Shown here piece after piece: positions 5,501 through 63,486 of a stretch of DNA of 64,000 bases. This DNA comes from Tribonema minus (Eukaryota > Sar > Xanthophyceae > Tribonematales > Tribonemataceae). Made by a program: the position numbers and the translations under genes. The first letter of the stretch is position 1. Each line of letters opens with the position of its first letter. The stretch covers positions 1,054,001 to 1,118,000 of the forward strand of contig JAFCMP010000079.1 of NCBI GenBank assembly GCA_017506865.1, written 5' to 3'. The notes beneath the pieces were generated by a model. That model did not search any database and was not told the DNA's origin. It was given only the letters and a program-made list of their open reading frames with translations.

Positions 5501-8500
5501 GCAGTGGCTGTGCCATCATCAAGACCGCCGCCAAATGTAGGATGGCAATGTGTTCTGCTGACGTCAGGCTGTACATGAAGCTGACAGCGGTGTCCTTGGA
5601 GTTACGCGATGAGTCTCGCCTTCTAAGCGAGCGCCACTTACCCATGCACTTGCAGAAAAATGAAAAAATGATTGCGGCCGCTGCTCGCTCACGCGGATGC
5701 CGCGAGGCGCCGCCGCCGCCATCACCACACTGCGGCGGCAGAACGCCGCACTGCCGCCGATGTGTGCCCAACAGCACAGGAGGCCTCACGTGACGCGTAC
5801 ACTCAAGCTGAAGTTGTGGAAACGGCATGCTAAAAAACTTCAAGTGTGACGCACCTCCGCCCACGCGCCGCAGCGCCGCCGCGCCAGCCACGAGCGCACG
5901 GCAGCGCCGAGGTGCACCGCCGCGGCTGAGCGCAGCTCGACGCGCCGCTCGTGCCGCAGCGCGGCGACGGCGGCCGCGACGGCGCGCGCCTGCGGTCCGC
6001 GCCGCGCCAGATGCCCCTGAGAGAGGCAGGGTAGGTATGTGTATATGTGAAAATGGGTATGTAGTGGTACGTCTACCTGGCAGCAATGAGCGGGACCAGG
6101 AGCGCACGCTCATAATCATCAAGCTGCAATGTACTACACCTTTCCTCGAAGTATAACGCACGCGCCGTTGTAATCACCGCAACAAGGCTGCTATTGGCGC
6201 TGCTGCTGCAGCAGCCACGCAGTGCCCGCGGCGTCACTGCGATGATGCGGTGGCTGATCTTCACTGCGCACGGCGGTGAAGCGCTGAAAGTGCGCACACA
6301 ACGCCAAATGCGATGCCGCACGCGCAACACCATATGGCACCCACAAAGCGCGGCGGCCTTCGTCACTGAGCAGCATGGAAAGAGTCCTGGTATCGCTGCG
6401 ACTTCGACAGTGCCCCGGTCGCAGTCCTGTTCGTGCTGCGCCCCCCCTTTCCATGCCCCCTGCTTTTAGGCGCGTACTTGCGCGCACAGCGCCCCGCCGC
6501 TGTGCGCACCTTGAAGACCGCCTGGATGGGAACGGCGTGCCGCCCCTTCGCCAGCAGCGCGGCGCGCTGGCAGCGCAGCGCCGCCGCCCGCCGCCGTGCG
6601 GCGTGCGCGCGGAACGCCGCCTGCAGCCGCACCGCCGCGGCGCCGCAGCGCCGCCGCTCGCGCGCCTCGCGGCGCCGCCGCCGCCGCCGGTGCGCCGCGT
6701 ATGCGAGCTGGACGGTGAGCGCGGCGGCGTCGCGGCGCGCGGCGGCGGCGGCGCCGAGCGCGCGCGCGCGCGCGCGCGCGCGCGCGCGCCCACGCCGCCT
6801 GCACGCGGCGCGCGGCGGCGTCGCGGACGGCCGCGCGCGCGGCGCGCAGCTTGGCGGCGGCGAGGTCCGCGCGCGGCGCGTAGCCGAAGAACGCGCGCGC
6901 GGGCGCCACGAGGTCGCGCCCTACGGCGTCGACGAGCGCGGCGAGGCCGTCGTCGGTGACGCGCGCGCAGCCGGTGAGGTTAAGCGTGTAGAGGCCGCGG
7001 CACCGCGTGACGAGCGGGCAGAGGCCCGCCTCGGAGATCGCGCGCGAGCCCTGAGCGGCGCGGCGCGGGGGGGAGGGGAAGGTGCGAGTGCGGGGGGGGT
7101 TGTTGGGGGGCGCGAGGGGAGGGGCGGCGAGGTCCGCGCGGCCTTGTGTGGAGAGCGCTGTGAGCGGAAGGCGCTTGCGGCGTGAGCGTATTGCAGTCGG
7201 CGCGGGTGTATCAGCACAACAAAGGGAATGACAGTGGTGCTGCTGGTCAACGCTGTCTGGTTGTCTTCGTCCCCAGTCGCTGTCGGATTTGCAGACTGTG
7301 GCTCGGTGCATGGACAGCGGCACGCTCATCTGTGCGAGCCGCGGAAGCGCCAACGCTGCAGCGCTGCGCGCTCGGGCTGTCTTGGCGCGCGTTCGCCCTG
7401 ACAAAGCGCTGCGCGGTCACCGATATTATTCTCTCATGCAGCGGACTCCAATGTCAAGGGGAGGCTGCAGACAACTGTGCAGACAGCTGCGCGTGGGGGA
7501 CCTGTCAGTTCATTGTCATCATACGCACATGTGGTAACGGGCGCATGCGCAGGTGCGCACCGCTTGCGCTGCCGTCAAATCCAGCGCCGACATCGCACAC
7601 AAATTGGTAACATCAACAAAAGATGCAGGGCCTCTGCGGTGCCTCAACACATTGTCTGCCACCGCACCGTTGGGTGGGGAGGGGGGGGGGGGCGAGCGCA
7701 ACGGCCGGACCGCAGCAGAGGCACAGTAGTCCTAAAGCTGATCTAACGCTAATTCTAACCCAAGTCCTCACCCTCACGACAACCCTAACCCAAACCCTAA
7801 CCTTGAACCCTAGCCCTAACCCTAATCCAGAACCCTAAATGCACGCACCGCGACGTTCAGGAATGCCAGGTGCGGGCAGCCGCGAGCGAGCGCCTTCAGT
7901 CCCGCGTCGGTTACATTTCCGTTGCGCCCGACGTTCAGGCTCGCCAGGCGCGCGCAGTGGCAGCCAATGTCCTCGATGGCGCGGCCGCTGAGCGCCGGGC
8001 ACTCGTGGAGGTTGAGCACCGCCATGCGCGAGCACGCGCGCGCCACGGCGCCGACGCCGGCGTCGCCCGCCCCCAGGCAGCCCTCTAGGGAGAGGAAGCG
8101 CAGGCGCGGGCAGCCCGCTGCGAGGGCCGTTAGCCCCCTGAGGGCGTCAGCATGGGAGAGGGGGGAGAGGATGTGAGGGCAACACGGCGGGGCCCGGCAG
8201 CGAGCTGAACGTCGACAGCGGCATGCTGTTCATACAGCGCGCAGCGCGCTACGCGGAGCTCACGCGCCTCAAGAGCCCGCAGTGCATGGTGAAGATTGCA
8301 ACACGCCTTCAAACCAGCAAGCGACATCAAGCAAGCGACATAGGCGCCACAAATTGGCAACGAGACTCGGAATCAAGAGGATCAGACATTCGTTTTTGCG
8401 AAGCATGTATGATATATTGTGCGCGGTCTGCTGTGTGTGGGTGCCTGCTTATGCAGCAGCTGCCTTCCCCACAGGTATGCCTGCTTATGCAGCAGCGACC

Positions 8501-16860: not shown

Positions 16861-18517
16861 TCAGTGCACCCCATCGAGAGACCGCAGCCAGGTCGCGACG
16901 GCGGCGTTGCGGACGCTCTCTGCCGACGCCACCATGATCGCCAGCGTCTCCGGCGACCAGTCGCCCATGCCGTGCTCCCTGGCCCACTGCAGCAGCGCGA
17001 CGGTGCAGAAGCGGTTTGCAGCGAGGGACGCGACCGCCGCGCTCCGCGAGGCGTGCGACTCCTCAAAGCTCCACTTAGAGAGCAGCAGCCGCGCCACCGC
17101 TGGTTTCCTGCTGCTCAGCGCCAGAATTACAGTGTCGACCGACTGCTCGACATCTACGTGGTCCAGCACCCACCGCACAATTTGCAGACGCCCTGCCCTC
17201 ACCGCCGTCTCCACGAGCGTCGCGTACCTGGATGCGCCATTGTCCCAGATCCTCGTGAAGTAGCCGTGCGCGTCGGCGTCGACATGATAGCCGATGTGCT
17301 GCACGAAGGCGCCGTCGTCAACCTCAAAAACCCAGCAATCGGAATCCACGACCCAGCGCAGCGTTTCCAGGTGGCCGCAGCGCGCCGCGATGCTGGCCAG
17401 TCCCGGCACGATCCACGTGGGCAGGTCGTCTGACCCTTCCTGCGCGATCCACTCCAGCATGACGCCCTCGTCTCCGCGCGCGGCGGCCGCCGCGGCCGCC
17501 GCCAGCAGGTGCTTCGTCTCGAACCCGTCGTCGTCGGACTCCTTCAGCAGGTTGCCGAGATGGACGAACCAGTCGGGGCGCCCGCTGCGCGCGGCGCTCA
17601 CGAGCATGCTGCCGTCGAGCTCCAGTCCGAAGCCGACGCCGGTGGCGCAGGCGAGCGTCGCGCGCGTGCCCCACCGGCCGAGCTGCTCGCGCAAGGCACG
17701 CTGTTGCCTGGGCTCCAGCGCTCCCGCATCCGCCGCCACGATGAGGGTTTCGACGCGGCAGAGGGTTTCGCGCCACGCGGTCTTCGCGAGGTGCTCGAAG
17801 CCGAAGTGCTGCGCGCACGTCGCCATGTAGACGCCGCGCCAGTGGGGGCTGACGCCCGCGATGTATAGCCACCTCGACCTGCCCGCAAACTGCAGGACGT
17901 GGCCGAGCAGCAGCGGGTCGTCCAGAACCGCGCTTCTGGCACCCTGAGCTGAGCTGAATCTTGGCTTTTTCGTCCTAACACCGAGCCTGCGGTCCCTCGC
18001 AGCTGGTAGCTGAGCGAGTACAGCCTCCATACCGCTGAACTGTTCGCCAGCTGCACTCAGCTGCGTGGCGACAGCGTGCAGCCCGTAAAGCTCGGAGTCG
18101 AGCCCTACCAGGCCAGGAGTCGCGGTGCCACTTCCTGCGGGCGTGGCATGGACACGTGCAAGTGGTCGGTGCAGAAGCGCAACGCATACTTCATACATAC
18201 ACAACAAAACAAACAGCCCCCACAACAAACGCCCATCGTCCTTCATCGCCGGAAGGAGGGTTCCAAATCGCCATAAACCAAAGACACGCCGGCCGGCTTT
18301 TTCCTTGCTTGAAAGTGGATATTAGCAGCTTAGATGACCGCGCTAAGGATGCGCATGCACAAGCACACACGAGGCGCCACGCGAGCCTTAGTTCGCGCGC
18401 GAACGTTTTGAATTGATCCTACTCCTCACCTCTTGCAAGCCGCGCCAAGATTGCTGACACCCTACCACATATGTAGGCATACGCATCGTCTGCGTGTCCC
18501 GGGTGTCCGGTCGTCAT
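16861..18517 (-). CDS. F-box/ankyrin-like family protein, copy A (intact)
   Basis: Exon 1 18517-18430 and exon 2 18134-16861, joined by a 295-nt intron with phase 1 (G/GA); 453 aa. Exon 1 encodes ADDAYAYICGRVSAILARL, which matches exon 1 of copies B (DDAYSYVCSRVAATLGQL) and C (ARSYVCHRVAAMLGEV). Exon 2 opens with ELYGLHAVATQL, then an F-box-like segment (LLLGHVLQFAG, then WLYIAGVSPHWRGVY, about residues 112-147), then about 300 residues of degenerate ankyrin-like helical repeats ending in VATWLRSLDGVH. The family is recognised only from the three copies here and a general likeness to stramenopile F-box/ankyrin-like proteins, so substrate-adaptor function is inference. An ATG at 18246 would give a 461-aa single-exon form with a hydrophobic start, but it lies in the intron defined by the paralogs. 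Confidence 0.75.
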
Positions 18518-22735: not shown

Positions 22736-34572
<11,837 letters not shown>

Positions 34573-35549: not shown

Positions 35550-37072
35550 TCAGTTCTCTGCCTGCAGCGATTTGAGCCACGCTTTGAGAGGTTTGTTCTT
35601 CACCCTCTCTGCCGCTGTGAGCATCTCTGAGATGGTCTCAGGAAACCACTGGCCCTTATGATTCTCCCTGGCCCACTTGAACAGCGCCACGCTAGCGCTG
35701 CGCACCGTGAGCGACGCCACTACTGCACTGTCTGACTCAGCAAAGCGCGCGCGCAGCAGCAGCAGTCTCGCCACACCAACATTACCGTGCTTAACAGCAA
35801 GAGCTACTGTGGCAGCAGGGACAGCGTGCACTGCGTGTGCTATGTGAGTAATCAAGATTCTCCACGACTTCCTCATGACCTGCCTTGACAGCGGTGTCCA
35901 GCAAACCGTAGACATGTGCCTCAGCGCTGCGCTGATCGATCTCGAAGCAGTTCTGCATAGCGAAGGCCCAATCATCGTCCAGATCTATGTCATCGTAATG
36001 CTCAGCATATGATGGGAAGTCAAACCTGTCGACGCCGTCCTCGAGACACCAGCCCATTGTGAATTCGTGGCCGTGCCTGGCGGCCACAGTGGCCAGACCT
36101 GCGCCAATCCACTGCGGCATGCCGCCCTCGCCCCAGTCCTGCTCCAGGATCCACCCCAGCATGTCGCCGTCGTCGCCCGAGCGAGCGGCGCTCACGGCCG
36201 CATTAATCAACTCGAAGCGACTCAGCGCCTGGGTTTCCTGCATGAGCTTCCCCACCAGCTTGAGCCACTCGAAGTCCCCGCTCTCGGCGGCGCATAACAG
36301 CACGTGCATGTCGAGCTCCAGCTTGAAGGCGATGCCCGTGGCGCAGCTGAGGATGACGCGCGAGCCCCGCTTGCCGAGTGCGCGCTTGATGTGCCGGGCT
36401 GACGACTCATCATTCAGCACGCCCGCATCAGCGGCCACGGCGAAGGCCTCGACACTGCCGACGGCCTCCGTGTAGCGCGTCTTGGCAAGGTGCTGCAGGC
36501 CGAGGCTTCTGGCGCACGTGGCCATGAGGACGGCACGCCAGTGACGGCTCACGCCGGCGATGTACAGCCAGCGTCCGCCTCCCTCAAACTGTAGGACCTG
36601 ACTGAGAAGTATGGCATCACCTAGGACGCGGTGTGTTGACCTTGATGCCTGACTTGTTGCGTCGACTTTATGTTTTCGTACGACGAGGTCGCCCTCTGCT
36701 GCCTCACCGTCTTCAACTGAGAGAGTAGCTGGGGCAGTCCCCGGTACTGATCGCCAGCCGTCTCTAGCTGCGCGGCTATGGCCTGCAGACCGTACAGCTC
36801 CGCTTTCAAGCCCGGACAACAATCAGCACCAGCACCAACGGCCCCTGTGTACACATCGCGGTGGATCAGGGAGTAGAAGACAAGGGAGGTCCATCAGAAT
36901 GCACCGTGACACAGTGCGAGCGAACACAGGAGCGTGTCCATAGCACTGCGCATTTGCAGCTTCTGCTGTTAATCAAGTGCTCTTAGATGTCCGCACCTCT
37001 TTGAGCCAGTTGGCCCAGTGTCGCAGCCACCCTTGAGCACACGTAGCTGTAGGCATCGTCGCGACCCGCCAT
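35550..37072 (-). pseudogene. F-box/ankyrin-like family, copy B with two frame breaks
   Basis: Exon 1 37072-36997 (MAGRDDAYSYVCSRVAATLG) and exon 2 36844-35550, with the same phase-1 intron as copy A. Exon 2 starts GAVGAGADCCPGLKAELYGL. The homologous reading then moves to another frame near 36690-36705, runs through LLSQVLQFEGGGRWLYIAGV and the ankyrin-like body, and moves back near 35855-35860, just after AVKAGHEEVVE. It ends KAWLKSLQAEN. The two breaks have opposite sign, so the ends are in the same frame but about 280 codons in the middle are not. Either this is a young pseudogene or there are two 1-nt sequence errors. It is divergent from the plastid-targeted gene, with 93 bp between start codons. 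Confidence 0.72.
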
Positions 37073-37165: not shown

Positions 37166-40100
37166 ATGCAGCAGCAGCTGAATGTCGCCATGCGCCTCAC
37201 GCACTCGCTGCTCGTGCTCCTGCTGGTGTTGTCACCGCTGGACATCTGTGCTGCGTTCGCACCAATTCAAGTGCGAAAACAGAGAACCATCATGGTGCCT
37301 TGGGGCAGCCAACGACAGTGCTGCTCCAGCCGCTTGATGAGCCGGCGCGCTGTCGGCACCAGTACCACCAGGCTGCGCATGGCCGACAAGAAGAGCAGAG
37401 CAGAAGCGCAGTTTGAATCCTTGCTGAGGCAGGCTACGGGCCAGCATGACTCCACGTATGAATCACCTCGTGGCGGCTCCCAGGCGCAGGAGGTGGCAAC
37501 AGACCCTTGGACGAGGCTCGCACAGCTGGAGAACAGGTGCATGCATGCGTGTGTACGGCGGTTGCTTGTCTCACTGTCAGCGTGGTATTCTGTGTGCGCA
37601 GCTCTATTACAAACATGTGATGGGATCAGCGTGCAATATGCATGCGCCAGTGGCAGGGGTTCCTGCACCTAGAACAGCACTGAAAAATCAGTTGCACCAT
37701 GTGTCTACCAATTCACTCCCCTCGTGTAACGCATGTTGAAGTTGGTGCTGGGGGCAGAGCAAACCAATGTGGCAGTTGAGAGCTGGTGGCTATATTTCGT
37801 GCCAGGCTCGCACGATTCTCCTACATGTGCTCCGCTGTTGACGCCGACTGACTACCATCAAGTTGATGATGCCATTATAATAATGTGCAAATCAAGCACG
37901 GAGGCACCCCATGCCCATCTCAGCACTGCTGCTGCTGCGGCTGCTGCTGCAGTCCCTGAGGCAGCACGCACCCCCCTCCCCCCCCCCCGCCTTCCCCGCA
38001 CATACACACACACGCTCCCGCACGCACACGCACCCCCCCCCCCCCCCCCAGGGTCAAGGCCATGGAGGCGGACGTGCGCGCGACGGTCGCCGCCAACGCG
38101 CAGCTGCGCGCGAGCGCCGCGCGCCTGCGCGAGCGCAACGACGCGCTGAAAGCGCACCTCTACGGCGCCCAGGCGCGCACGATAGGGCCGCGCATGAGCG
38201 CCGCCGTCGGCGGCCCCCTCTCGCACGACGAGGAGACGCTGCAGCTGGGGTGCACGGCGGCGGGCGCGCTGGGGGGGCTTGCCGCGGGGAAGGTCATAGG
38301 GCAGGTGTACCTCGGCGGCGTCGCGGGCGCGGTCGCGGCGGCGCTGTACGCGCACCGCCCGGACTCGCGCGCCGGCAACTTTGTGCGCATCTGCGGCAAG
38401 GCCGTCATCATCGGCGCGTACAAGGTGAGGGGAGGTGGGGGCCCGCGCGCGGCGCGTCGTGCGCGTGTGTGTGGAAGCTGAGGAATAGGACGCGGGCCCC
38501 CAGCGTCGCTTTGCTCGCGCTCGTGAGTCACAGAGGGTCGCAGAAGGGCGCCGCGTCACATGTGGGCACCTGCGGCATTGTTTGTCGTTTGCCACGTGCA
38601 GCAGAGGGAGCGGTCGGTGCAGCGACATTTGAGGTCAGTCGTCACTGCGCTTTTGTAGGTAGAACTTGAGAGCGATGCACACTGATTGCTCACGTGTCCT
38701 GTGCGCTCAATGTTGCCATCCGCTCCTGCAAGTGCATCCCAAACTTCAAATTTAGCCTCAACCTCATTGCATGCTGACGTGGACGCGACCTGATCAGTGG
38801 TAGCGCCTGGGTGTCTGGCCTGCGTCATGGCAAACCTCATGCCCTTCATGCTGTAACCTGTGTTGGTCTGCAGATTCGGGCGCTGTGGCAGGAGTTTCTG
38901 GTGCGGTGGCGCGCCTGGAACGTCTACGAGCGGCTCTTCAAAGAGTGGGAGGCGCTGGACAGAAAGTGAGCATGCATGTAACTGTGTGGGCGATGGTCGA
39001 ACTTGCGGTGATTTGAGGCCAAACTGCTTGCCACTGGAGCACTTGAAGGTAATGATGGCAAGCCTGTAGGCATCATGGGCCCCGATTTGGGCAGCACCTG
39101 TCCAGCAGCTACGACATCTGCACCACTGGAAGCTTTTCGCATCGGATATATGCCCAAGTTCAAATGTGCGCCTTCTCGCCAGGATCCATCATAATCAGAC
39201 GTGAAGTTGAATATATAACGTTTGCAAAATGTACAAAATTGGTGTTGACGGCCGCCATCACCTGTGCGAAACGTTGTTGCCGGGCTACGGTGTGCTGAAG
39301 TCCGCTAGGTAGTCGCGCCAGTACTATAACAGACAGCTGTAGCATATGCATCCAGTGGCAGATCCACCTCATCGTCAGCAGTGCCATGCAAACTCTTCGC
39401 CCCTGCGCCGATCAGCACTGCAGGCACAGTCAGAAGCACATTGCGCGACTGCGCTGGACAGCCAGTCACATCCTCAGCAGTCGCGCGCCACACACCCCTC
39501 CAACGCTGCGCCACCCCCCCCAACCTTCGCGAATCACCGACAGCGCCGCGCCTGCCCGCCCGCTCCGCCGCCGCGCCGCAGGTTCGCCGTCACGGAGCGC
39601 GTCGGCTCCCTCAATGACAGGTACCAGATCGTCGACTCGGTGGGCGCGTGGGCCTCTGTCGTGCAGGCGAAGGCGGTGGAGGCGGGCGCGCTGGTGGCGG
39701 GCCCGGTGGAGAGGGTGGCCACGGGGGCGGGGCTCGCGCCGCACCTGGAGCACCTCGGGAGCAGCATCGCGAGCAGCCTGCAGGCGGTCGGGCGCGACAT
39801 TGAGAGCAACTACAACGGCACCGTGAGGTGAGAGAGTGCTGGTCGGTCACCGCGTGTGATGAGCTGCAAGGGCCGGGGGCAGGATGGAGGGCGCCGGGCA
39901 GGGGGGGGCGCGGGGGGGCTGTGGTGAGAGGGTGCGTTGAGAGCAATGACAACGGCACCGTGAGGTGAGAGGGTGGAATTGGATGACACGCATGGGGTAA
40001 GAGGGTGCGTTGAGAGCAACTACAATGGCATTGTGAGGTGAGAGAAAGGAATCAGATGACGCGCGTGTGGTGAGAGGGTGTGTTTGAACGACGCCTTGAG

Positions 40101-42501
40101 ATGAGCCGAAAGGGGCCGGGGGGGGGGCAGTGCGTCCCGAGGCAGGACTGAGGGGGGGGGGGGGGGTGTCCAGCAGATAGCTGCGCGCACTGGCATTGCG
40201 AGACATGAGAGCTGTGCTGCTGTGGCCACTAGTAGGCTGCAAGTCGCCAGGTGCGACATCGTTGGCCGTGTTGACCAAGGGCACCGTCACGCAAGAAGCA
40301 GAGTTCACCGGAGTTCACCCACCGTGCATCCTGAGTTCAGGCCCAGCCAAGCAGGGAATCCATTCTCGGGCGCAGCATCGAGAGCAGCGACAATGGCACC
40401 GCAAGGTGACAGGGCCTATGCTTGCCGTTGGCATGCGGACAACGTGTGTAGAAGCAGGATGGATAGCGCTAGAAGTTATGTGTAATTAGCAGTAATAGAC
40501 CAGGCAGACCTGAGATAGTAGTGGCAGCAGTGATGATCAAAGCGGTACATAGCAGCTGCAGTAGGTCAGGTTGGTGCTCACAGCTGGGGATTTGAAGTTG
40601 AAGTTACGGCAGGAGCCATCTTGAAGCTGCAGCAGCCACAGCAAGCGCGCTGATTTGGGACCACGCTGTGCTGCAGCCGCCTACCGCGGACGCAAGGAGA
40701 TGCGAACGTGCCAAACTGATCAACAGAAGTGGGCTGGGGGCGCTGCGCAAGAGCTTGAGAGGGCGGCGACACTGAGGGCCAGGGGGCCTGGTTTGAACTT
40801 TGATGATTGAAGCCGTTTACATTTGACCGCGTGCTACGGCAACATTGACAAAGGAAGTTACGGCGTTGGCATGCACTGCTTAAACAGCAACATGTGGATT
40901 ACATGAGGGCTGTTCAAAGGTGCTGCGCTGACAACTGACTGCTCACGCTTGAAGAGGTCTGCATCAACGACCCTGGCCTTGCGCATGTGCGCACACACGG
41001 GTGCAGTCCAACAAACCACATCTACTGCTGAAAGCCCATGCACGTGATGCGGCACCGCCATGTCACACTCAGATTGTGCTGTTATTGCTCCCCACTGTCG
41101 CCCTCCCCCCTGTGCAGTGCGTGGACGGGGCTGACGAGCGATGTTGCATCCTGGACCAATGGCATCACAGCGAGCTGGTTCAAGTGGGAGGTAAGAGCAC
41201 GGGACAGAACTCAGATTGCGACTCTAAAAGCAAGCGTGCGGCCTCCTGTGATGCCTCTTGCTCTGTATGAGCTCACTGCTGGCTTTTGTGATTGTTGGCA
41301 GCACAGCCCTCCAACGCAAGCGGCAGACAGGGCACGGTCACAGTTGGCTGTTGTGGTCCCCGTCGGCTCGCAGTTCTGATAATGGCAACCAAACACGCTG
41401 GCTGAGCAGTGTGGCTGCTGCATCGTCCTCGCGTGTACCCAGCAGCTTTAGGGGCGGCGCCACTTGCAGCTGGCATCGCTGAGATTCGCAGCGCGGCGGC
41501 GACATCGCCGTTGAACACGGCCTCGATGCGCTGATGCGTTCCTCAAGAGCATCTACGGCATCGATTATTGCAGCAGTCACGCTGGCACGCGCGTGATCGT
41601 ATGCAGCCGCTTCCTGCGCAACGGCCCTGTTCGTGACGGCTTGAGTTGCGCGCCTCATTGCCAGTGACTGTGCGCTGAGCGCTGCTGCAGAGACACGTGG
41701 ACCCCAATCATCGAGAACCTGTACAGATTCAGCAGTAGCAGCGGCCATGCGCGCCTGGACGCAGTTGCACTGGCGCCAGCAACCCACCCTGTCGTCATGC
41801 TCTCATCATGCTCATGTTGCCATGCTGTCCGGCGCACGCCGCCGAGAGCACACTACCACATGCGTGCTGACTGTTTCTGTAGGTGTTGTTATCTGACGTT
41901 GGTCTCGAAACGCCGCGCTGAAACTGGGTGGGGATAGTAGAGCTTGCCACGCAAGCTGACTGTGAGCAGCGCGCTCAAGCGTTGGTCTGCACATGCACGC
42001 TCCAGCTGAAGGTGACCATGACATGACGGTGCTGCAGTAACAATTCTCACGTCCTGCAAGAAGAAATATCGCGTATGCTGCTCTCCGCAGCGCTGAACGC
42101 TGTGCCTGCCCCTGTCGCGCAGACCTGCCGATGCAACATGCGCGTCGAGCGAGGGTGCCGAGCGCCACTGCCCTCACAAACAGCCGGACATTCAACTGCA
42201 TCGCCCTTCATAGCCACCGTCAATACCCTCATTGCTATGCAACGATGCCACATTTGACGCGCTCGCGCTTGTGTCCACGCCGCTCTGCGCCCGTGCGCGT
42301 GCCCGCTCCGTCATGCAGCCGCCATCTCAAGAGGCCGCCGTGAAAGCGGACGTCGTGAGCGAGGACGTCAAGCAGGCCGACCTCTCGCCCGCCGAGGCGA
42401 CGAAGGTGGCGGCGGCAGCGGCGGCGGCAGCGGCGGCGATGGCCGCGAGCGCGCCGCCGCGCGCCAACGGCAGCGGCGTTGACATCGCGGCCACGCAGTG
42501 A
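37166..42501 (+). CDS. Plastid-targeted protein of unknown function (AFAP signal)
   Basis: Six exons: 37166-37536, 38052-38424, 38874-38965, 39582-39827, 41118-41190, 42319-42501 (TGA). Phases agree; 445 aa. Residues 11-30 are a strong hydrophobic signal peptide ending CAA before FAP, with Phe31 at +1, followed by an Arg/Ser-rich stretch (to about residue 75). This is the bipartite plastid import signal of red-lineage secondary algae. The mature part has a coiled-coil-prone region (NAQLRASAARLRERNDAL), a Gly/Ala-rich hydrophobic segment (about residues 190-235) that may be membrane-embedded, a Trp-rich helix (IRALWQEFLVRWRAWNVYE), then FAVTERVGSLNDRYQIVDSV and an Ala-rich tail. I do not recognise the family. 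Targeting is well supported; function is unknown. Confidence 0.75.
39800..40410. repeat. Three echoes of the exon-4 donor edge
   Basis: The end of exon 4 with its donor (GAGAGCAACTACAACGGCAC, then CGTGAGGTGAGAG; donor at 39828) recurs with donors at about 39965, 40038 and 40405. The copies become less exact with distance. The intervening sequence also repeats GAGAGGGTG and ATGACACGCATG-like words. Confidence 0.85.
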
Positions 42502-46408: not shown

Positions 46409-47576
<1,168 letters not shown>

Positions 47577-48946: not shown

Positions 48947-49543
<597 letters not shown>

Positions 49544-51623: not shown

Positions 51624-53103
51624 ATGGGACCACGAGCCAACGCTCGCAGCTACGTATGCCATCGCGTGGCTGCAATGCTGGGTGAAGTGGCCAGAGGTGA
51701 GCGTTGCAGCTTGTGCATCAGGCGCACGGCACACAAAATAATACTTCTACAGCTGTCGTCGCCTCTGACCCGTCGCCATGAGTCTGAGCCTGTGTGCTGT
51801 TGCTTGTACCTCCAGGAGCCGTGGCGGCTGGTTCGCCTGGTTTGACCGCCGAGTTATATGGTCTACAGGCCATCGCCAAGCAGCTGGACGCAAGTGGCTT
51901 CAGTACCAGGGATTACCCCTGCTGCTCTCCCAGCTGGAAGCGGTGAAGGAGCACAGAGCATGTGCAATCACCAAGAAACGCAAGACCGACGTCGACCAAA
52001 GCACCAAGGCCTCCACCACCGCTCTAGACAATCCAATTATCTTGGGCCAAGTGCTGGGGTTCGTGGGAGGGGGGGCCTGGCTCTACACCGTCGGGGTGAG
52101 CCGCCAGTGGCGCGGCGCCTACTTGGCCGCCTGCGCCACCAGCTTTGGCCTGGAGTTCCTCCTCCAGACGAGCGTGCGGCACGCGGTCAGCGGCGTGGAG
52201 GCGTTCGCCGTCGCTGCCGACGCCGGCCTCATCAGCAATGACGAGGCGCTGCTGCTGCGCGCGCTGGGCCGGTGGGGCAGCCGCCTCGTCCTCGCCTGCG
52301 TCACGGGCGCCGAGTTCGGCGTGCCGCTGGACTTGCCGGTGCTGCTAGGCGCTGCCGAGAGCGAGCGCTTCCCGTGGTTCAAGCTGGTCGCGGAGCTGCG
52401 GCTGCGGACGCTGGGGCCGATGGAGCGCAGCCAGGCGGTGGAGGTGGCGACCGTCGCGGCGCAGGCGGGCGACGACGGCCGCATCCTCGACTGGATTTTT
52501 AGCCACGCGTGCAGCAGTGGCGTCTGGCCCAGGTGGTTGGGGGAGGGCCTGGCCTGCACAGCGGCAGAGTATGGCCACGTGCCGACGCTGGCGTGGGTGC
52601 TGACGGAAGGCCCCTCGCGTCACGGCCTGGCAGCGTACGCTGAGACGTACGACGGCCTCGAAGTGTCGGACGTTTACGACGGCGATCTAGCGGACTGCTT
52701 CACCGAAGATCCGCGCATCGACTACGAACGCGTCTATAGTCTGTTAGACTTGGCGATTGCGGCGGGTCACCCGAGCGTGGTCACGTACCTTTTGACTGAA
52801 GTCATCAGCCACACCATCTCCCTAAGCACGTTGGCTCTGGCAGTTGAGCACACGCGCGCGGAGGCGGTAAAGGTGTTGCTCCAGAAAGGCCGCTTCGAAG
52901 GCGTTCCTTCCAAGACCGCGGTGATGGTGAGCCTCGCTGCTGTGCGTAACGTAGGAGTTCCTCTGTTCGAGTGGGCTAGACAGCGTGACATCGGGTGGGA
53001 TCTCGACGACGCACGCAGTCTGATGCACATGCAGGAAGCAGCGGAGCGGGCTGACAACAGCACCTTGGTAGACTGGCTGAAAGCAGTGATACAGGGCATA
53101 TGA
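51624..53103 (+). pseudogene. F-box/ankyrin-like family, copy C with an N-terminal frame break
   Basis: Exon 1 51624-51696 (MGPRANARSYVCHRVAAMLG) and exon 2 51816-53103 share the phase-1 intron of copies A and B. Exon 2 starts GAVAAGSPGLTAELYGLQAI in the spliced frame. The homologous reading shifts frame near 51896-51902, between QLDASG and QYQGLPLLLSQL. After that one frame is open to the stop: F-box-like LGQVLGFVGGGAWLYTVGV, the ankyrin-like body, and the end VDWLKAVIQGI. An upstream ATG at 51778 in the body frame would give a 441-aa protein with an unrelated start. This is a pseudogene, a recently shifted gene, or a 1-nt sequence error. Confidence 0.7.
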
Positions 53104-54344: not shown

Positions 54345-57300
54345 TCACGTGGGGCGGCCGCGGCTAGGGTGCGTCAGCAGGTCGATGGACGCCGACACCT
54401 CCTTGATGTTGGTGATGACGCGCTCGCGGATGAGGTCGCCCTTGCCTGCGGCGATCGCCATGAGGCCCTCCAAAAGCTCGACGTTGCCGAGCACGTCGAT
54501 GTGGTCGCCGCTCGTGCCGCCGCCCCTGCGCGCGCAGGCGGAGCGACGCACGCGCAGGTCGGTCGCGCAGCGTTTGCGGCGTGCGGTGTCAACATGCTTT
54601 ACTCATCTAGGTACCTACAAGCGTTGCGTGGGCGTACAGTGTGTTGGGTAATCACGCAGGAAAGCGTACACTGAAAAAAATCGACGAACAGTCTGTCGCT
54701 CGAGGCTGACGCCAGCCTGATTAAAACAGCACCACGTCCAGTGCTTCTGTTGGTGCGCAATGTGCCGTGACCCCCCCCTTCAAGCTTGAGTCAAAGCTGC
54801 ACATGCCTGACTCATTTGCACAGGACCATAACGAGTGGAACCTGCTCCTGCAAAGGGCGCAATGATGGCGGCGGCACAAACAGCGCATCGCCTCCAACCC
54901 AAAGCCCACCTTACTTCTGAAAGCACCACAGCATCACAACCCGTACGGCGACCGCACTGCGCACCTGACTTCTCGAGCACATTGTCAGCGGTACGCGCGC
55001 AGTTTGCTGTAGGTGCTATCGCATGTGCATCAATAGCGGTTCGATACCGATATGCATGCAGTTGCACGCACAAAACACCTCGAAATGCACGTCGACAGCA
55101 CCCGCATTCACATCCGGCCTGCACGCATCCGAGCGACCCTCTCTCACCTGAGACTGAAGCCGGCGGGCAGGTGCGGATACTCCACGGTGGTGACATTGAT
55201 CTTGCTGGGGTTGTAGGGGTACTTGTCGTTCTTCCAGCCCTCGCTGCACATGTAGCCCAGCGACAGCAGCGGCACTGTGCCGTCGCCGTTGACCAGGCGC
55301 ATGCCCTGGGAGAAGCACCCGTTGCTGCCAGGGGGGGGGGGCGTGTGTGTAGGGGGAGAGGGGAGGGGGGGGTGGGGGGGGGAGTTAAGGCGTGATGCTG
55401 ATATTCACCTTGGTTCAATACATTTTTAAAGGTATGTGAGGACAGAGCGCAATGTACCAATGTGCATCAGCCCGATTGTACATAGCTCCTGCAGCTCCTT
55501 GATGTACCAATGTGCATCAGCCCGATTGTACATAGCTCCTGCAGCTCCTTGATGAGTTTGTTCGAAGAAGCACAATATAAGCAGGCAGCAGTATCAGGCA
55601 TCAGCAAGCAAGCCGTAAATAGGAGAGGCAGGTTTAAGAGACTCTCAGCATCACTCAAGACCCGCTGCATGATGCAGGTACTCACGAGCGCTGCAGTGAT
55701 GTACACCATGCTGAGCACTGCGCAGAAATCCTGCGTGTCGAGATGTGCATAGTACGAAGCATGCATCAACTGCTCTCCGCGCCACCAACGACAGAGGACC
55801 CGCTGCCGCACTACAGACACCCTCAAGCACGCAGAGCGGAAAAAGAACTTCAACTTGAAGTACACTATATCAAATTGAAGTTTGCGGCGTCACCTCGGCG
55901 CCGAGTTTGCAGATCGTGCACGCACAAAGATCAGCTCCTCCTCGCCATCGAGAGGCAGCGTGCAGTTGCCGGCCGGCAGAGTGGAAATTTCAACTTGAAG
56001 TACACTGTACAAGCTGAAGTTCAGAAGTTGAAGTACACTGCATCAAGTTGAGGATTGCGGCGTCACCTCGGCGCCGCGTTCCAGATTGTGTACGGCACGG
56101 AGATGAGCTCCTCCTCGCCGTCGACGGGCAGCGTGCAGTTGCCGGCGTCCTCGGTGCACGTCTGCGCCTCCTCGTACGGGCTCGTGCGGTACAGGTAGCC
56201 GCGCTCGGCGCTGTTGTTGGCGCCGTACATGCACCAGATGCGCATGTTGGGGGCGTTGGGGAGCGCGCTGGCGAGGGGGTTGGACCAGTACCTGCGTATG
56301 TGCGCGCGCGCACGCGTCGTATGGGCGAGGCGGAGATTAGGCATGAGAACATAGCGGTAGGAAGGCGAGGGTTTACACTATGTGCGGTGTGGCGCATATG
56401 TGTGACCAGGCTCGCTGCCACTGTGGGCGCCATGCACGGTCCAGGTGCGCTGTGTTTGAAGCAGTGAACGTGCACTGGCTAATGGGTCACTACCCACAAG
56501 TTTAACCACCCAACGCCTCGATGCCACAAGAATTGCGTGGCTGACTGGCGCTGCAGGGCGCACTAACTTCAGTCTTATATTGAAGTTAATGAGGGCCGAC
56601 ACAGTAAATTCGGGCTGCACATGCCAGTATATGCATCCGCCCTTAACGCGTTTGACAGCTGGCTTTACTGCAGCACCACAACCAAAAAAAGCATGGAGTG
56701 ACTGTTGCACAAACAGTGAGGGGGGGGGGGGGGGGGGGGGGGGCGCTGAACTGACGCTTTAGGGGCACATCGCGTCAAGCTTTCCGAACAGCAACTCGGG
56801 CTTCGCTTCCTTTTCACCTTGCAGAGAGGAGCAACAACCTGCAACCAAGCAGTCAAGAACTTCGCACGCTGCCAGGATCTGTCAACATATGCACTGGTCA
56901 TTGATGCTGCGGGTGACGAAAGCTGCCGGGGTGACAGAAGATGTTTTGACAAGACAGAAGACGCAACCAATTTCTAGTGCCTTACTAGCACTAGTGCGGA
57001 AACCTTGTTGACCAACCACCAACCAATTATGTGTCATGAAAAAAGAGTACAGCACGGAGGCTTCCCACGTGGTCCCCCACCGTAGTACTAGCTCCGCTCA
57101 AGGGTGCTTAACTTCGGCATCGGACGAGAGCTGGTGCTGTCACCATGATATGGCCGTACCCATTTGCTGAACCTGCAACTGTGCATATCAAATAATGTTA
57201 AGGTTGCCAAACCTGACATCTGGAAATGTGCCTTTTGAAAAAGGAAATATAGTATACAACGTGGACCGAGTGCCGCGCGTGTACAAGCAGAGTACAGCAC

Positions 57301-60300
57301 AGAAAATCACATTGTGCAGACCAACTACCAATGTTTTTTAATGTTTTTTGAATGAACTCTTCATGTGAGAGAATCATGGTGGACATCCGCCGTGATTTGT
57401 TCCAAGATCACACATCCTGCATTCAATGAATAAGGGTTATGTCAAACAACTTGCTGGTACAGACAACAACAGGGTCGACGATTGTGGCACCCAGCGGCAA
57501 CTACTGTGGCTCACATTGGCAGGTCGTAGCGCGCGTCGTTGCACGTTGCGAGAATGCATGGTGGACATCCACCGTGATATGTCCAAGCATACGCGCCCGC
57601 ATCGATCAATGCAGTCTTTGTGAAAAGGTAGGTGCTTGCACAGACAATGATGGCGTTGGGATAGTGCTACCTAGTTGCGACAAGCTCACATTGGGTGGTC
57701 GTAGCGCGCGTCGTTGCACGTTGCGAGAATGCATGGTGGACATCCACCATGACTTGTCCAAGCATGCACGCCCGCATCGATCAATACAGGCTTGTGTCAC
57801 AACCAAGGTGCTTGTACTGACGACAACGGTGTTGAGAATGACAATGCCCAGCGGCGACTAGTCAGCTCACATTGGGTGGTCGTAGCGTGCGTCGTTGCCC
57901 AGGTCCTCAATGTCCGCGGCCACCAGATTCGCGGCTTCCGCCTCGTCCGTGTACAGCCTGTGGTCGAGGCGCGGCAGAATGAGGGTCCTCCAGGCGTCCT
58001 CCCACGTCATGTTGCCCGCGACCGGCGGGACGACGTCCGGGACGAAGCTGCGCGGCAGCGAGGGCGATCGGAAATCTCCACGGTGAGAGAGTGGCTTTCG
58101 CGGCGGCGGCGGCGGCGATGGGTGACGCTGCGCGGGTATGCTGCTGCGGGCGCATGCGGTAGGTGGATCGTAACAGGGCGCAGTGCGGGACGCACACGCC
58201 AGCTGAAGCCCCCCCCCACACACACCCCTCCCCTTTATGACTCTGTTATGAGGTCCTCTGGCGCTGCAGACACCCACTGCAGTCAGCCTGGCGAGCAGCA
58301 CGGTGACTCGGTCATGTTATCACACACACAGCAGGGGAGCGCCAGTATAGGACAAGCCCCCCACTGCTACACAACGTGAATGCAGCGAGTACGACAGCTT
58401 GGCGCATAATGCCCACCAGCTGCCAGCATCATTGATGCAGCATGGGTACTTGACCCTCCCCGCTCTGATCATGCTGCCGGCAAGTGGCATGTGCGGAAGA
58501 GTTTCCTGCAGAGGCTTTCTCTGCATGCCTCAGCACAGCCTCAGCATGGTTGATGCTTGCCCTATGCCTCACTGCTCCCGTTCACTCAGGTGATCATAAT
58601 GCCATACGGCACGCTGAGCGGCAGGCTCGCCTCTGCACAAACACTACCAAACGACGGGTGGCGCACAACAAGAACTCAGAAATGCGCTGCACGATGTGCG
58701 CTTCAACATCGCTCATCACGAGCTGCCACAGTGCTGCCTTTACACTCTTTCAAAATGTCAACTTACCTGATGATGGTGCCGTACGTCAGGCAGCGCCGCG
58801 GCTCCGCCCCCTCCTGCGTGCCCTCCAACACAGACTGACTGAGACAGTAACAATCCTGTTTCAACTTCAAGTCACCTGACTCACACTGCCGCAACGCCGG
58901 GCGTTGCTGCAACTGCACATTCTCCTGCATGCCTCTCAACACAGAATAAAACTGCAGCAATCTTCGTCTTCAACTTCAAGTCACCTGATCATGTTGCCGC
59001 AGGTCGTGCAGTACCGTAGGCGGCTCCGCCTCCTCCTGCGTGCCCCCTCCCACACAAAACTGTAACAATCCTATGTTACCTTCGACTCACCTAACACACG
59101 CTGCCGCAACGCCGGGCAGTGCCGCGACTGCATACTCTCCTGCATGCCCTCCCCACACACACTCCATCTGCAGCAATCAGCACCTTCAACTTCAACTCAC
59201 CTGATCATGTTGCTGTAGGTCGGGCATGCCCTCACGTGAAGAATGGAACTGCAGCAATCTTCCTGTTCAATTTCAAGTCACCTGATCATGTTGCCGTAGG
59301 TCGGGCAGTGCGGCGGCTCCGCCTCCTCCTGCGTGCCGTCATTGGAGGGCGTGAGCGGCACGGCGGTGTCGTCCGGCGCCCACGTCGCGTTGCCCCAGAT
59401 GGCGCTGCCGCCCTTGGGCAGCATGGTCACCAGGCTGCTCCATGTCCTGCGGCGCCATGAACAGAGAGGTTTGAAGTTGGTTGTGAGGGTTGAAGTTTGC
59501 TATCAGGGGTGGATTGAGCCCCGGACGGCGCTGCCGCCCTTGGGGGCAGCATGGTCACCAGGCTGCTCCACGTCCTGCCGCGCCGTAGACGGGGTAAATT
59601 GAAGTTAGATATGAAGTTTGCTATTAGGCGCATGATTCTGTAGGGAACTCAGCCGCCCGACGCAGGCGTGCATCGCGTAGACTACCCTGCTGTTGCGGTG
59701 AGCCGTTGCGGCGGTGATGTGCAGCCCACGACGAGCGCTGACGCGAGGCGCAAAGAGGAAATACTTAGGCATGTACGTGGCGCAGCGCAGCAACAACGCT
59801 CAGCCGGTACGTTTCGCGCAGGAGAGGCATCGGCTCGCAGCGACGCGTACACATGCAACTTTCGCAACACTGCGCGAGCAACGACAGCCCACTGTTTGCC
59901 CTTCGATTGCACCGTGCGACCACGAGCCAAGAGGCGCGAGCGCGGTCCTCATTTGCGCCAACTTGAAGTAGCGCAGCCAGCGGACGAGCGTTGCCAACGC
60001 GGCCTGCCTGCATGACTACTCCATGCGCGCGCGCGCTCTCACCGCAGCAGGTGCGCGCGCCGCTCCGGCGACAGGTAGTAGTCCAGCGCCGCCGACATGG
60101 TCCCGAGCTGAGCCGTGTCCTTGAACTCGCCGGAGAGCAGCGCGCTCACGGCCTTGGGCACGCCCAGCAGCGACCCCGCTACGTTGGCGACGCCGGCGAC
60201 GTGCTTGGCGACCCAGCCGTCGCCGCCCTTGCCGCCGTTCTCGGACTCGACCCAGTTGAGGAAGAAGTAGACGACCTGTAGCGGGGGGAGGGGGGAAGGG

Positions 60301-63300
60301 GGGGGTCGAGCGCTGTGCATGATGTTTGCGTCTGGAGCGCAGTGGCAGAAGGCTGGCTGAACAAGCATGTGCCGTAGTGCTTTGGACCGGGCGACCCAGC
60401 CGTCGCAGCCCTTGCCGCCGTTTTTGGATTCTACCCAGTTCAGGAAGAAGCACACCGACCTGTAGCAGGGTGGGGGTGGGGGTGGGGGGGGGGGGGGCGT
60501 TTGCGCGTCTGATGTTTGCGGCTGTGTGCGACACAAGCGGTTGCAGTTTCACTCCCAATATTACCGTGCAGGATCAGGCGGTTGCAACTTCACTCCCTAT
60601 GACCTGCTCGCAGGAGGGAGACTTGCCTGCCCCCCAAGGAAGCACAATACCAGCGGTTGCAGCTTCCTTCTTGACTTCGTTTTGCTATGTTATCACAACT
60701 TCACTTCCTACTTCAATGGTGGCCTGCTCGCAGGGCATGAAACTCGTCTGCCCACCAACCCTGTGCGACATCAGCGGTCCCAACATGCGTTCCGACTTCG
60801 CTCTCAACCTACAACCTTCACTTCGAACTTCAGCTGGCAGAAATGGCTGCAGAAGAAGCCTTGCCTGCCCGCCGAAGCTGTGCAATATCATGACTGCAGG
60901 CGTGCCGCTGACTTCAAGCGCTGTCTCTAGCGTGTGCTTGAGGCGCGTCACCAAGCTCTAACTTCAAGTGAGAGAAATGGCTGCAGAAGACGACTCAAGT
61001 CTTCACTTGCCTGCCCGCCGAAGCTGTGCGACATCATAACTGCGGGCGTGCCGCTGACTTCAAGCGCAGTCTCTAGCGTGTGCTTCAGGCGCGTCAAGAA
61101 GCCATCGCGCTTCTCCGCCATCCACGGGGAGAGTCGCCAGTCATAGCTGGCCATATACATCTCGTTGCTGCGGCGCAACGGCAGCAGCAGCAGCGACAGC
61201 AACAGTGTGCAGGATCAGAAAGGGAGGTAGGCAGGTGCCAGGAGTCACAGATTGAAGTAGCAAATCAGGAGAGGCACCAGTCGTAGCTGGCCATGTACAT
61301 CTCGTTGCTGCGGCGCGACAGTGGCAGCAGCAGCGGTGAACGGGATCAGGAAGGGAGGTAGGTAGGTGCGGGGAGTCACGGGTTGAAGTAGCAGGTGCCA
61401 GTCATGGCTGGCTATGTACATCTCGTTGCTGCAACGCGATAGGTTTGGCAGCAGCGGTGCTCAGGTTCCCGAGGACAAAAATGTTGGAGACCGTACTCGG
61501 AGGTAAACACTTGCCAACGCACCCATGACAGCAACAGCATACATGTGAGCTGCCATAGCTGGCTATGTAAGTATTTATCGTTGCTATGCGAGAAGCGACC
61601 CATAGAAACAGCTCTCAGCGTCACAGATCAGGAGCGAGAGACGCAGTGAGGCATATACATAGTATACGGGCTTCTTTCATCTGCCATCTGCACAGCAGGT
61701 GGCATTTGCCTGTGTGCATGGTCAAACACTGGCAATGATACGATGGTGCAAGTTGACGCAGACTGCCATCCATACCGTTGCTGTCATGCAGCCAGATTGT
61801 TGGAAGTTATGTACCAAATGCATTCACAGGACTTGGCAGGGACTCGTGTGGTGCATTGCAGGGAATGAATCGCGTTGTCTACTTTTATTTCTGAGGTGCA
61901 AACAACGCAGGCTGGTCCCACGTTTGGAGTATGCACAACACCTCTTGTGGCAGTTACTGCAAGCCTGTGTGTGTATGTATGTGTATATGTATGGCGTGGC
62001 GCATCTCACCTGGTGTAGCCGATCTCTGTGCTCCGCCGCCATCAGTCAGAGCCGCAGAGCCGCAGAGATGAGTGGACAAGGCGCATACAGCACAAGCAAA
62101 CGCAACAGAAGTCAGCTTCTGGGCACGCGCACGTGAAAGCAACAATGAAATAATTGACTGTGAAGTACAGTTTCTTAATGTGTCGCATCGCTACCGCTTC
62201 TGCAGCGCCGTGGTAAAAGCGTTTGCAGCATGCATTTGACAATACCAGTGGCAATGAGGGCAGCGTGCCGGGCCTTGCAATGGCTACACAACAACAACCT
62301 ACACGTGCGCATCCACTTGAAGCCACCCAAGTCGAGCTTGGCACAACAAAGAGTGCCTGAGCCATGATTGTGAGCATACACTACGGTACTGCTTTTTCAG
62401 CATGAGTCGTGTTGGATGCTGATTGAAGCACTACTTCAACTCTGGTGTTGGTGACTTCCATGTCGCTGGCGGTCTACATAAATTTCACGGCGGACCGCAT
62501 GGCCTGCGACAGCGATGCCGGAGTGATGCAGTTGAAGTTGAAGGTGGCAAACCACAACCGTGCCTTGAGCACTGTATCACACCAAGCAGCATTTGAGGAT
62601 CAATAGTGAACACTTCACTACCAGCTCATCCCGAGACCACAGAGCATTATTCAGCAGAACTGCGGCGGCCAGAGATGTTTGCAGGATGGTTTGAAGTTGA
62701 AATTGATACCAGTTGCGCTACGCAGAGTTTTGCCACTGTGCCAACAACAGTGCACCCCAGTTCTGCTGCGCGCTGCGCGTTTACAACATGGCGAGTCACT
62801 CTCCACAATTTGGGTACGCACGTAGCCGCGCCCTCCGTTCAAACACATACAGCAGCACCGCATTGCGCAGCCACGCTCAGCGCGCAGCACACTCTCGCAT
62901 CGCACGCACGCGCCTCATGCGCACGCCGCCATCACACCAGCAACACCGCCAGCGCGCATCACATAAACTCTCCGTCTGCTTCGTTACCCAATGACCACTG
63001 CAACACACACTAACACACACCCCCCCCCCTCAACAAGGCGGCCCCCTACTCACCGGCGAGGTTCTGCGCGTGCGCGCCCGCCGCCATCACACCAGCAACA
63101 CCACCAGCGCGCATCATATTCACGCTGCCATTCGCTTCGCTACCCGACGATCACTGCCACACACACCCTCTACAAGGCGCCCCCCCTAAAAGGCACCCCC
63201 TCCCCGACTCACCGGCGAGGTTCTCAATTACCTTCCCCCACACCCAGTACCCGCGGAACACGTAGTCCGCCGCCTCGAGCCCGACCGCGGAGCGCAGCTT

Positions 63301-63486
63301 GCGCCCCGGCGGGTCCAGCCCCGTCTCCGAGTCCAGCTCCATGTGGCGCAGCCAGCACATCTTGTCCGCCAGCAGCGCCTGCAGCATGCTCGACGTGCCC
63401 CACACGCGCTGGCGGAAGTAGTGGCGCAGGCACTCCTCGCCGTCCCAGATCTCCAGCCCCGAGGACGTGAAGCCGGGGACGATGAC
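54345..63486 (-). CDS. PDAT: Phospholipid:diacylglycerol acyltransferase (PDAT, LCAT family), 5' end missing
   Basis: Nine exons: 63486-63213, 62025-62010 (a 16-nt micro-exon), 61167-61011, 60275-60043, 59446-59282, 58143-57871, 56291-56067, 55324-55148, 54525-54345 (TGA). All phases agree and the joined length is 1701 nt (566 aa). PDAT moves an acyl group from a phospholipid to diacylglycerol, making triacylglycerol in the ER. Visible features: VIVPGFTSSGLEIWDG, the lid-region CWLRHMELDSETGLDP, YVFRGYWVWGKVIENLA, ASYDWRLSPW, the nucleophile SHSFGG (usually GHSMGG), KHVAGVANVAGSLLGVPKA, catalytic Asp in NGDGTVPLLSLGYMC, and His in SGDHIDVLGN. The first exon here begins after an acceptor in phase 0, so the N-terminal anchor lies upstream, perhaps outside the window. 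Intron 3 has a GC donor (CAG/GCAAGT at 61010). For the 58143 exon start, 58140 is an equally good alternative. Confidence 0.9.
55452..55550. repeat. Perfect 50-bp tandem duplication
   Basis: The unit beginning ATGTACCAATGTGCATCAGC at 55452-55500 repeats exactly at 55502-55550, period 50 bp. It lies in the PDAT intron between the exons at 56067 and 55324. Perfect identity indicates a very recent event or an assembly artefact. Confidence 0.95.
55883..56148. repeat. Duplicated donor edge of PDAT exon 56067-56291
   Basis: About 95 bp around the donor (56054-56148) recur at 55883-55978, period about 171 bp, including the donor CGTCACCTCGGCGCCG and about 80 nt of exon with substitutions. Both are flanked by CAACTTGAAGTACACT motifs. 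Confidence 0.85.
57039..57044 (-). terminator. Polymerase III terminator of the 5S gene
   Basis: A run of six T on the minus strand (AAAAAA at 57039-57044 on the plus strand) immediately after the 3' end of the 5S rRNA. Confidence 0.85.
57045..57161 (-). rRNA. 5S rRNA: 5S ribosomal RNA
   Basis: On the minus strand, 117 nt from GGGTACGGCCATATCATGG to GTGCTGTACTC. It contains the diagnostic 5S blocks: GGCCATA near the 5' end, CTCGTCCGATGCCGAAGTTA (CGTCCGAT plus box A), AAGCACC, TAGTACT and GGGGGACCACGTGGGAA (box C). The ends pair to form helix I (GGGTAC with GTACTC). A T6 run follows directly, as expected of a polymerase III terminator. It lies inside the PDAT intron between exons 58143-57871 and 56291-56067, on the same strand as the PDAT gene. 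Confidence 0.95.
57505..57900. repeat. Two echoes of the donor edge of PDAT exon 57871-58143
   Basis: The exon end plus donor (CTCACATTGGGTGGTCGTAG on the plus strand, real copy at 57866) recurs at about 57685 and 57510, steps of about 181 and 175 bp. Each echo also carries GCATGGTGGACATCCACC and CCGCATCGATCAAT. A further remnant of GTGGACATCC is at 57380. Confidence 0.88.
58765..59350. repeat. Array of donor-edge echoes of PDAT exon 59282-59446
   Basis: The donor edge (TCACCTGATCATGTTGCCGT on the plus strand, real copy at about 59278) recurs at about 59199, 59088, 58981, 58873 and 58765, steps of roughly 80-110 bp. Some copies keep up to 50 nt of exon (GGCTCCGCCTCCTCCTGCGT). Just inside most donors lies CTTCAACTTCAAGT, so the scattered motif is part of the repeated unit. 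An acceptor-edge copy of the same exon is at about 59523-59586. Confidence 0.88.
60375..61600. repeat. Echoes on both sides of PDAT catalytic-serine exon, and of next acceptor
   Basis: Exon 61011-61167 has donor-edge echoes at about 60859-60955 (nearly complete, reading LHSFGGQ then GC donor), 60741-60778 and 60615-60655. It has acceptor-edge echoes at about 61271-61335, 61391-61455 and 61551-61592. The acceptor edge of the next exon (60275) has one echo at about 60385-60465 (CFFLNWVESKNGGKG). Similarity falls with distance from the real exon. Confidence 0.85.
62925..63225. repeat. Tandem duplication including PDAT first-exon donor
   Basis: Two units of about 150-160 bp (about 62925-63070 and 63077-63225) share GCCGCCATCACACCAGCAAC and end in the donor edge TCACCGGCGAGGTTCT. 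The copy at 63049-63066 is the echo; the copy at 63209-63225 is the real donor. Confidence 0.8.

Follow-up and report, generated by a model that had tools for sequence, protein, structure and literature searches.

Exon-edge copies in the introns of a Tribonema minus PDAT gene as probable remnants of short tandem duplications

The PDAT gene and the copies of its exon edges

The DNA analysed here (the window) is a stretch of 64,000 nucleotides from Tribonema minus, contig C79:1054001-1118000, taken from an assembly of 158 Mb in 554 contigs in which C79 comprises 1,396,252 bases. T. minus is a xanthophyte and a member of the PX clade, which also includes the brown algae. The gene at 54345-63486 on the reverse strand is a relative of phospholipid:diacylglycerol acyltransferase (PDAT; PF02450), and the introns adjoining many of its splice junctions contain partial copies of the neighbouring exon edge, here called echoes, which had been reported in a first-pass annotation made from the letters alone. 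Spliced alignment of the NCBI protein model P0001 to the DNA placed the donors concerned at 63213, 61011 (a GC donor), 59282, 57871 and 56067 and the acceptors at 61167, 60275 and 59446, in exact agreement with the splice coordinates of that annotation.

Echoes were sought with probes of up to 40 exon and 15 intron bases, each compared with the adjoining intron only, and a cut-off was derived from 300 Markov-resampled introns. Fourteen echoes at 8 of the 16 PDAT junctions exceeded this cut-off: one at donor 63213, two at acceptor 61167, two at donor 61011, one each at acceptors 60275 and 59446, four at donor 59282, two at donor 57871 and one at donor 56067. The control with reverse-complemented probes gave no echoes in the adjoining introns. 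The eight junctions are the same as those found at first pass, where 17 echoes had been counted, three of which fell below the cut-off. Self-comparison of the window, the dot-plot check proposed with the annotation, gave direct repeats over all eight junctions. Each PDAT echo carries one exon edge, not a whole exon with both of its sites.

Following the reverse strand from the upstream end of the gene, the exon ending at the used donor 63213 occupies 63213-63486 in the P0001 alignment; the NCBI model extends to 63559, and the donor is crossed by P0002, a translation of assembled transcripts (EukProt; the record name starts with TRINITY), with the upstream end of the exon lying outside P0002. 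Self-comparison and probes together placed the copies that follow. The tandem pair 62919-63065/63074-63224 holds one donor echo with its boundary at about 63053. Tandem copies around acceptor 61167 (61128-61455, with starts at 61128, 61268 and 61397) contain the echoes 61268-61319 and 61397-61432. The exon with the GC donor, 61011-61167 by P0001 alignment, is accompanied by the tandem pair 60823-60956/60957-61102, with a donor echo boundary at about 60864 and a weaker echo at 60742-60773. Acceptor echoes of 60275 and 59446 lie at about 60459 and 59574, in the tandem pairs 60207-60334/60390-60524 and 59392-59507/59518-59628, respectively. The largest array, that of donor 59282 (58754-59340), has echo boundaries at about 59200, 58984, 58875 and 58766, and a three-copy array with a period of about 180 bp at donor 57871 (57366-57898, starts at 57366, 57547 and 57722) has boundaries at about 57689 and 57514. 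The tandem pair 55852-55973/56025-56146 covers donor 56067, and its echo donor lies at 55893/55894. Detectable copies amount to 2,312 of the 7,537 PDAT intron bases.

The transcript-derived protein P0002 extends across all eight introns and shares 499 of 501 residues with the echo-free PDAT model. No echo is present within P0002, all of them falling inside the eight host introns, which indicates that the exon-bounding PDAT sites were used and the echoes skipped in that transcript. The GC donor at 61011 fits both P0001 and P0002. P0001 carries a 40-residue insertion that is absent from P0002, the echo of donor 56067 having been read there as a 120-bp exon (55894-56013, reverse strand). Alignment to P0001 also revealed a 16-bp microexon, EIGYTS, with split end codons (62010-62025, reverse strand), unmentioned in the first-pass annotation, the residues of which are present in P0002.

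Local direct duplications and the decay of their copies

The wider sample consisted of 304 kb from five contigs, 144 kb containing the window and its surroundings, plus 40 kb apiece from four others. Gene models came from a self-trained hidden Markov model, except for the NCBI T. minus proteins P0001, P0121 (a neighbouring M16 peptidase) and P0241. Local pairs, defined as similar segments 30-1000 bp apart with a score of at least 36 bits, comprised 124 direct and 8 inverted ones, and removal of four low-complexity pairs from the 124 left 120 for analysis. Predicted exons shorter than 25 bp were relabelled as intron before classification, and where both copies had a coding prediction, one was barred from coding if this lowered the likelihood by less than 30, a masking that pushed pairs out of the exon-exon class. 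Only the echo exon of P0001 was removed; those of P0121 stayed labelled as exon, which adds some junction and exon-side cases.

The 120 pairs formed 68 families, 30 spanning one predicted junction, 4 spanning two, 23 within introns, 7 intergenic and 4 exon-to-intron, so that 34 of the 68 span a junction, a class that took priority in the assignment and is thereby favoured. Pair offsets ranged from 60 to 700 bp and were below 250 bp in 86 of 120. Identity was 75-85% in 67 pairs, and the copies differed by 10-30% in 101. Alignment length and offset nearly coincided in fresher cases (301/300, 135/133 and 175/176 bp); across identity classes the alignment exceeded 0.9 of the offset in 17-43% of pairs, the copies being eroded or the alignments partial. 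Duplicated stretches made up 13,784 of the 148,834 intron-labelled bases (9%), and with this figure and that for PDAT the earlier description of the introns as filled with such copies was too strong.

Duplications are not confined to junctions. On the three gene-dense contigs, 22 intron-only families in 136 kb (0.161/kb) compare with 4 intergenic families in 25 kb (0.158/kb), so that the density in intron interiors is about that of intergenic DNA. On the two gene-poor contigs both were rarer, with 1 intron family in 12.6 kb and 3 intergenic families in 55.7 kb. A perfect 300-bp tandem duplication was found at C1:129631-130231 in DNA labelled non-coding and is the sole pair of the 120 with more than 99% identity. 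A perfect 50-bp repeat of 2.1 units, outside the 120 counted pairs, lies wholly within a PDAT intron (55452-55554, reverse strand).

With the strand of the gene model considered, 42 of the 48 cases at junctions (28 at donors and 14 at acceptors) had the copy on the intron side and the other 6 (4 at acceptors and 2 at donors) had it on the exon side, several cases coming from one junction and thus not being independent. Three of the six exceptions fall in one predicted gene region of C79 (about -32,896 in window coordinates), two are at the M16 echo exons left labelled as exon, and one is in C50. All PDAT cases were on the intron side, so that the polarity asserted at first pass to be without exception stands for that gene and not for the whole sample. 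Conservation of the protein requires this intron-side polarity, since splicing at the inner site would add the duplicated stretch to the message. The further claim that similarity falls with distance did not hold: among the seven sampled junctions that carry more than one echo, identity fell with distance at two, and at the other five there was no monotonic fall. In the array of donor 59282, identities at 81, 297, 406 and 515 bp were 0.86, 0.92, 0.78 and 0.85. In some arrays two or more units seem to have been duplicated together, one example being the 218-bp offset within 58758-59226.

Where selection holds the used copy constant and the echo drifts neutrally, divergence on the exon side is expected to be half of that on the intron side. 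Mean divergence was 0.085 on the exon side compared to 0.169 on the intron side, the exon side being lower in 25 of 28 paired comparisons. Over 29 junctions, mismatches at codon positions 1, 2 and 3 were 0.101, 0.070 and 0.132, at splice sites 0.056, and in the intron beyond 0.169. The corrected ratio of codon positions 1 and 2 to intron was 0.47 (bootstrap confidence interval 0.32-0.65), against the 0.5 predicted when a neutral echo is paired with an unchanging exon. The echoes decay like neutral DNA. Identity dropped sharply past donor position +6, from 0.90 to 0.75 when gaps are scored as mismatches, and at acceptors the AG was completely identical, compared with 0.72-0.82 over the preceding 30 bases.

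Other genes of the window and echo exons in gene models

Direct repeats of the same kind, also reported at first pass, were present in three other window genes. In the LRR-IQ gene on the reverse strand, self-comparison gave a tandem pair (4768-5042, copies at 4768 and 4911) on predicted acceptor 4788 with an echo at about 4931, and copies at 8129-8180 and 8536-8584 on predicted acceptor 8137. The copies 8963-9027 and 9176-9240 in the same gene are each followed by CAG|GCGAGT, a GC-type donor; the gene finder predicted no exon here, and this family, which resembles a missed GC-donor junction, was kept in the intron count of the window. The self-trained splice model for the 304-kb sample had GC at 15% of donors and a preference for GCAG acceptors. 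On the forward strand, AFG3 has a tandem pair (32810-33166, copies at 32810 and 32987) on predicted donor 32855 with an echo at about 33032, as well as a 133-bp tandem duplication, 95.6% identical, wholly inside a predicted intron (25517-25784), which is the same process away from a junction. The plastid-targeted gene, also on the forward strand, has direct repeats at 39800, 39937 and 40010 (39788-40414), placing echoes of predicted donor 39827 at about 39964 and 40037 and, as judged from how the pair 39788/40366 is laid out, another at about 40405.

Echo peptides were found in two of the three NCBI models examined, four in all. Besides the insertion in P0001, P0121 contains three, DAKNRTSDERRLLQVLKALADPAHPFSK, the RPDDLADYYAALAVLP region and QNSAFVAYW, each beside a second version. 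These M16 repeats were absent from all four homologues compared, Ascophyllum P0124, Ectocarpus P0125 and the EukProt proteins P0122 and P0123, of which P0125 is without part of the first region. No echo peptide was noticed in the third model, P0241, for which no systematic check was made. In-frame peptide repeats in T. minus protein models therefore deserve suspicion, as echoes can mislead gene annotation.

Several further features were recorded in the window. The long PDAT intron holds, on the gene's own strand, a full-length match to 5S rRNA at 57044-57161 (reverse strand; Rfam RF00001, 94 bits, model positions 1-120). Two tandem genes named from their translation as ARF-like small GTPases, each with a single predicted coding exon, lie at 47030-47571 and 48997-49538 on the forward strand and share 96.7% identity over 542 bp. 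One gene family is represented by three diverged copies with 66-72% identity, which lie in both orientations 16-34 kb apart, at 17614-17910, 36245-36815 and 51836-52397. The word TTGAAGTT/AACTTCAA is present 36 times in the window against 0.86 expected under a dinucleotide model, mostly in intronic and intergenic DNA and in both orientations, and CTTGAAGTTGAAG occurs 1,128 times in the genome, compared with 491 for a reversed control.

Origin of the echoes and what they mean

The echoes are probably the remnants of frequent short direct tandem duplications, after which the exon-bounding site stays in use, the intron grows and the copy decays neutrally. Under this reading, direct duplications of about 60-500 bp, presumably from errors of replication or break repair, would arise throughout the non-coding DNA of the genome. 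Where a unit spans an exon-intron edge, the exon-bounding copy would remain in use, the other would become intron and decay neutrally, and the intron would lengthen step by step, while duplications lying wholly inside exons may be purged by selection. Preference for the outer site could follow from exon definition, in which a lone extra donor or acceptor completes no exon and the pair giving the smallest exon wins; use of the inner site would also usually break the reading frame. Intron growth through duplication over junctions with the outermost site in use, as originally proposed, is borne out by the direct orientation of the repeats, the echo-free transcript protein and the one-sided decay.

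Some counts weigh against a process with no regard for junctions and against its neutral outcome. Observed pairs numbered 47 at junctions, 4 at two junctions, 47 within introns, 10 intergenic, 12 exon-to-intron and 0 exon-exon, against 31.0, 5.4, 41.4, 16.7, 15.0 and 10.4 expected by random shift, and the absence of exon-exon pairs is weak support for purging because masking had barred coding in one copy of many pairs. The junction share, that is, one- or two-junction families over these plus intron families, was 12/15 in the discovery window (p = 0.004 against a neutral simulation), and half of the PDAT junctions (8/16) carry echoes, as would be expected if R-loops, transcription-coupled breaks or the junction sequence itself raised the rate of tandem duplication there. 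In the simulation, which covered the whole sample, junctions were not favoured, exons were conserved and pairs were detected at the same score; units were assumed to measure 70-400 bp, with divergence uniform to 0.45 and large deletions absent. For families beyond the window, the share was 22/42, indistinguishable from the simulated 0.433 (p = 0.15). Since the junction copy is conserved, the pair remains recognisable for longer and is not lost by deletion of that copy, which explains the junction excess at least in part; if junction duplications survive twice as long, the window value becomes p = 0.09, the alternative share of 0.60 being arithmetic on simulated birth counts, 2 x 1605 / (2 x 1605 + 2100). 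Given also the similar densities in introns and intergenic DNA, the junction-specific process implied by the first-pass annotation is unlikely. Random shifts, the simulation and the split between window and rest leave such a mechanism unneeded, a modest preference below about twofold remaining compatible with them, and uniform duplication combined with selection and survival is the simplest reading of the junction counts.

As regards neutrality, the dinucleotide of the used site was kept slightly more often than neutral decay predicts, in 38 of 41 echoes compared with 34.3 expected (p = 0.08, or 0.15 with one echo per junction), several echoes again sharing a junction. If the echoes had been retained for a function, as decoys or as alternative splice sites with a part in regulating splicing or providing alternative exons, mostly intact sites would be expected, and these were found (GT 23, GC 3, GG 1 and AG 14 of 41, with no acceptor echo of the 14 lacking its AG); a consensus match equal to or better than that of the used site was seen in 19 of 27 donor and 6 of 14 acceptor echoes, and four echo peptides stand in two NCBI models. 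Retention of the dinucleotides is nevertheless not significantly above neutral, the exon part decays at the neutral rate, and donor 9-mers are kept no better than the adjoining exon (p = 0.21). The sole transcript-level sequence, that of PDAT, skips all of its echoes, and the M16 repeats are missing from the four homologues. Selection on echo splice sites is thus suggestive at most in the per-echo test, and we consider the use of echoes as alternative splice sites, raised at first pass, improbable. We would give as little credence to some ten thousand junction duplications with selection-held splice sites forming a store of second donors and acceptors, often exonised into alternative peptides, a possibility hinted at by the echo peptides in two of three NCBI models and the intact acceptor AGs; the figure itself is a naive extrapolation from 34 families in a partly gene-rich 304 kb.

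An origin from introners or other transposable elements carrying splice sites is very improbable. It could appeal to the strong over-representation of TTGAAGTT/AACTTCAA in mostly non-coding DNA and to the 13 of its 84 intronic copies (15%) that lie in duplicated stretches, which occupy 9% of intron bases. This is a mild excess, and the word was rejected as a driver, 84 of its 128 copies being intronic, 34 intergenic and 10 exonic. The echo copies contain gene-specific exon sequence, and three PDAT echo arrays matched only their own place and their own local copies in the 158 Mb (the arrays of donors 59282 and 57871 having no match elsewhere), in a search that scores the best candidates only and skips very common words; for these three arrays a transposon or introner origin is disfavoured. 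That repeats are hard to assemble is all that favours an assembly artefact, which is scarcely credible given the 10-30% difference between copies in 101 of 120 pairs and the agreement of an independent transcript-derived protein with the outer PDAT junctions, and which is already refuted for the diverged copies, leaving aside the perfect ones (55452-55554 and the 300-bp duplication in C1).

The first-pass annotation knew of no described system that the echoes match; the closest known kind is tandem genomic (internal gene) duplication across exon-intron boundaries, the same mutation with a silent outcome. Short tandem duplication, reportedly a common insertion mutation, belongs to the same mutational class, although the Tribonema units are longer (60-500 bp) and the host is a xanthophyte. 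Gao and Lynch (2009) are said to have found within-gene duplications, some with intron-exon structure, to be common in eukaryotes; these reportedly alter the product or create or copy introns and are not decaying partial junction copies inside introns. Mutually exclusive exons duplicate a whole exon and use both sites, whereas a PDAT echo has a single edge and does not appear in P0002. Unlike the potato case described below, the PDAT copy is absent from the transcript-derived protein, and this repeatedly, at half of the junctions.

The mechanisms listed for intron gain include tandem genomic duplication (PMC3443670). The potato RdRp gene contains a tandem duplication crossing an intron-exon boundary that was resolved as a new intron, and, as in Tribonema, a local direct duplication over the boundary copied the acceptor and exon edge. 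A second tandem duplication in the potato gene, of 83 bp, is intronic, as some in Tribonema are. The potato boundary duplicate is spliced as a new intron plus a piece of exon, whereas in PDAT the intron only lengthens (PMC4974935). Introners are dispersed sequence copies with splice sites in introns, in contrast to the three tested Tribonema arrays, which are local (PMC9860276).

A literature search, conducted mostly without subscription papers, gave no recognised account of junction echoes, either for Tribonema or as a pattern across any genome. What is unusual relative to the closest known kind is the number of cases, the mostly intact decoy sites and the echo exons in NCBI models, with Tribonema alone examined. 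In this alga intron growth is caught in steps, each echo being a duplication referenced to the used exon edge, and a fixed exon copy beside a drifting echo allows a single genome to yield the footprint of splice-site constraint without other species, as in the step past donor position +6. The echoes also bear on splice-site choice, as two identical donors compete right after duplication and PDAT uses the exon-bounding one, and the mostly intact echo sites ignored in the PDAT transcript are the interesting part.

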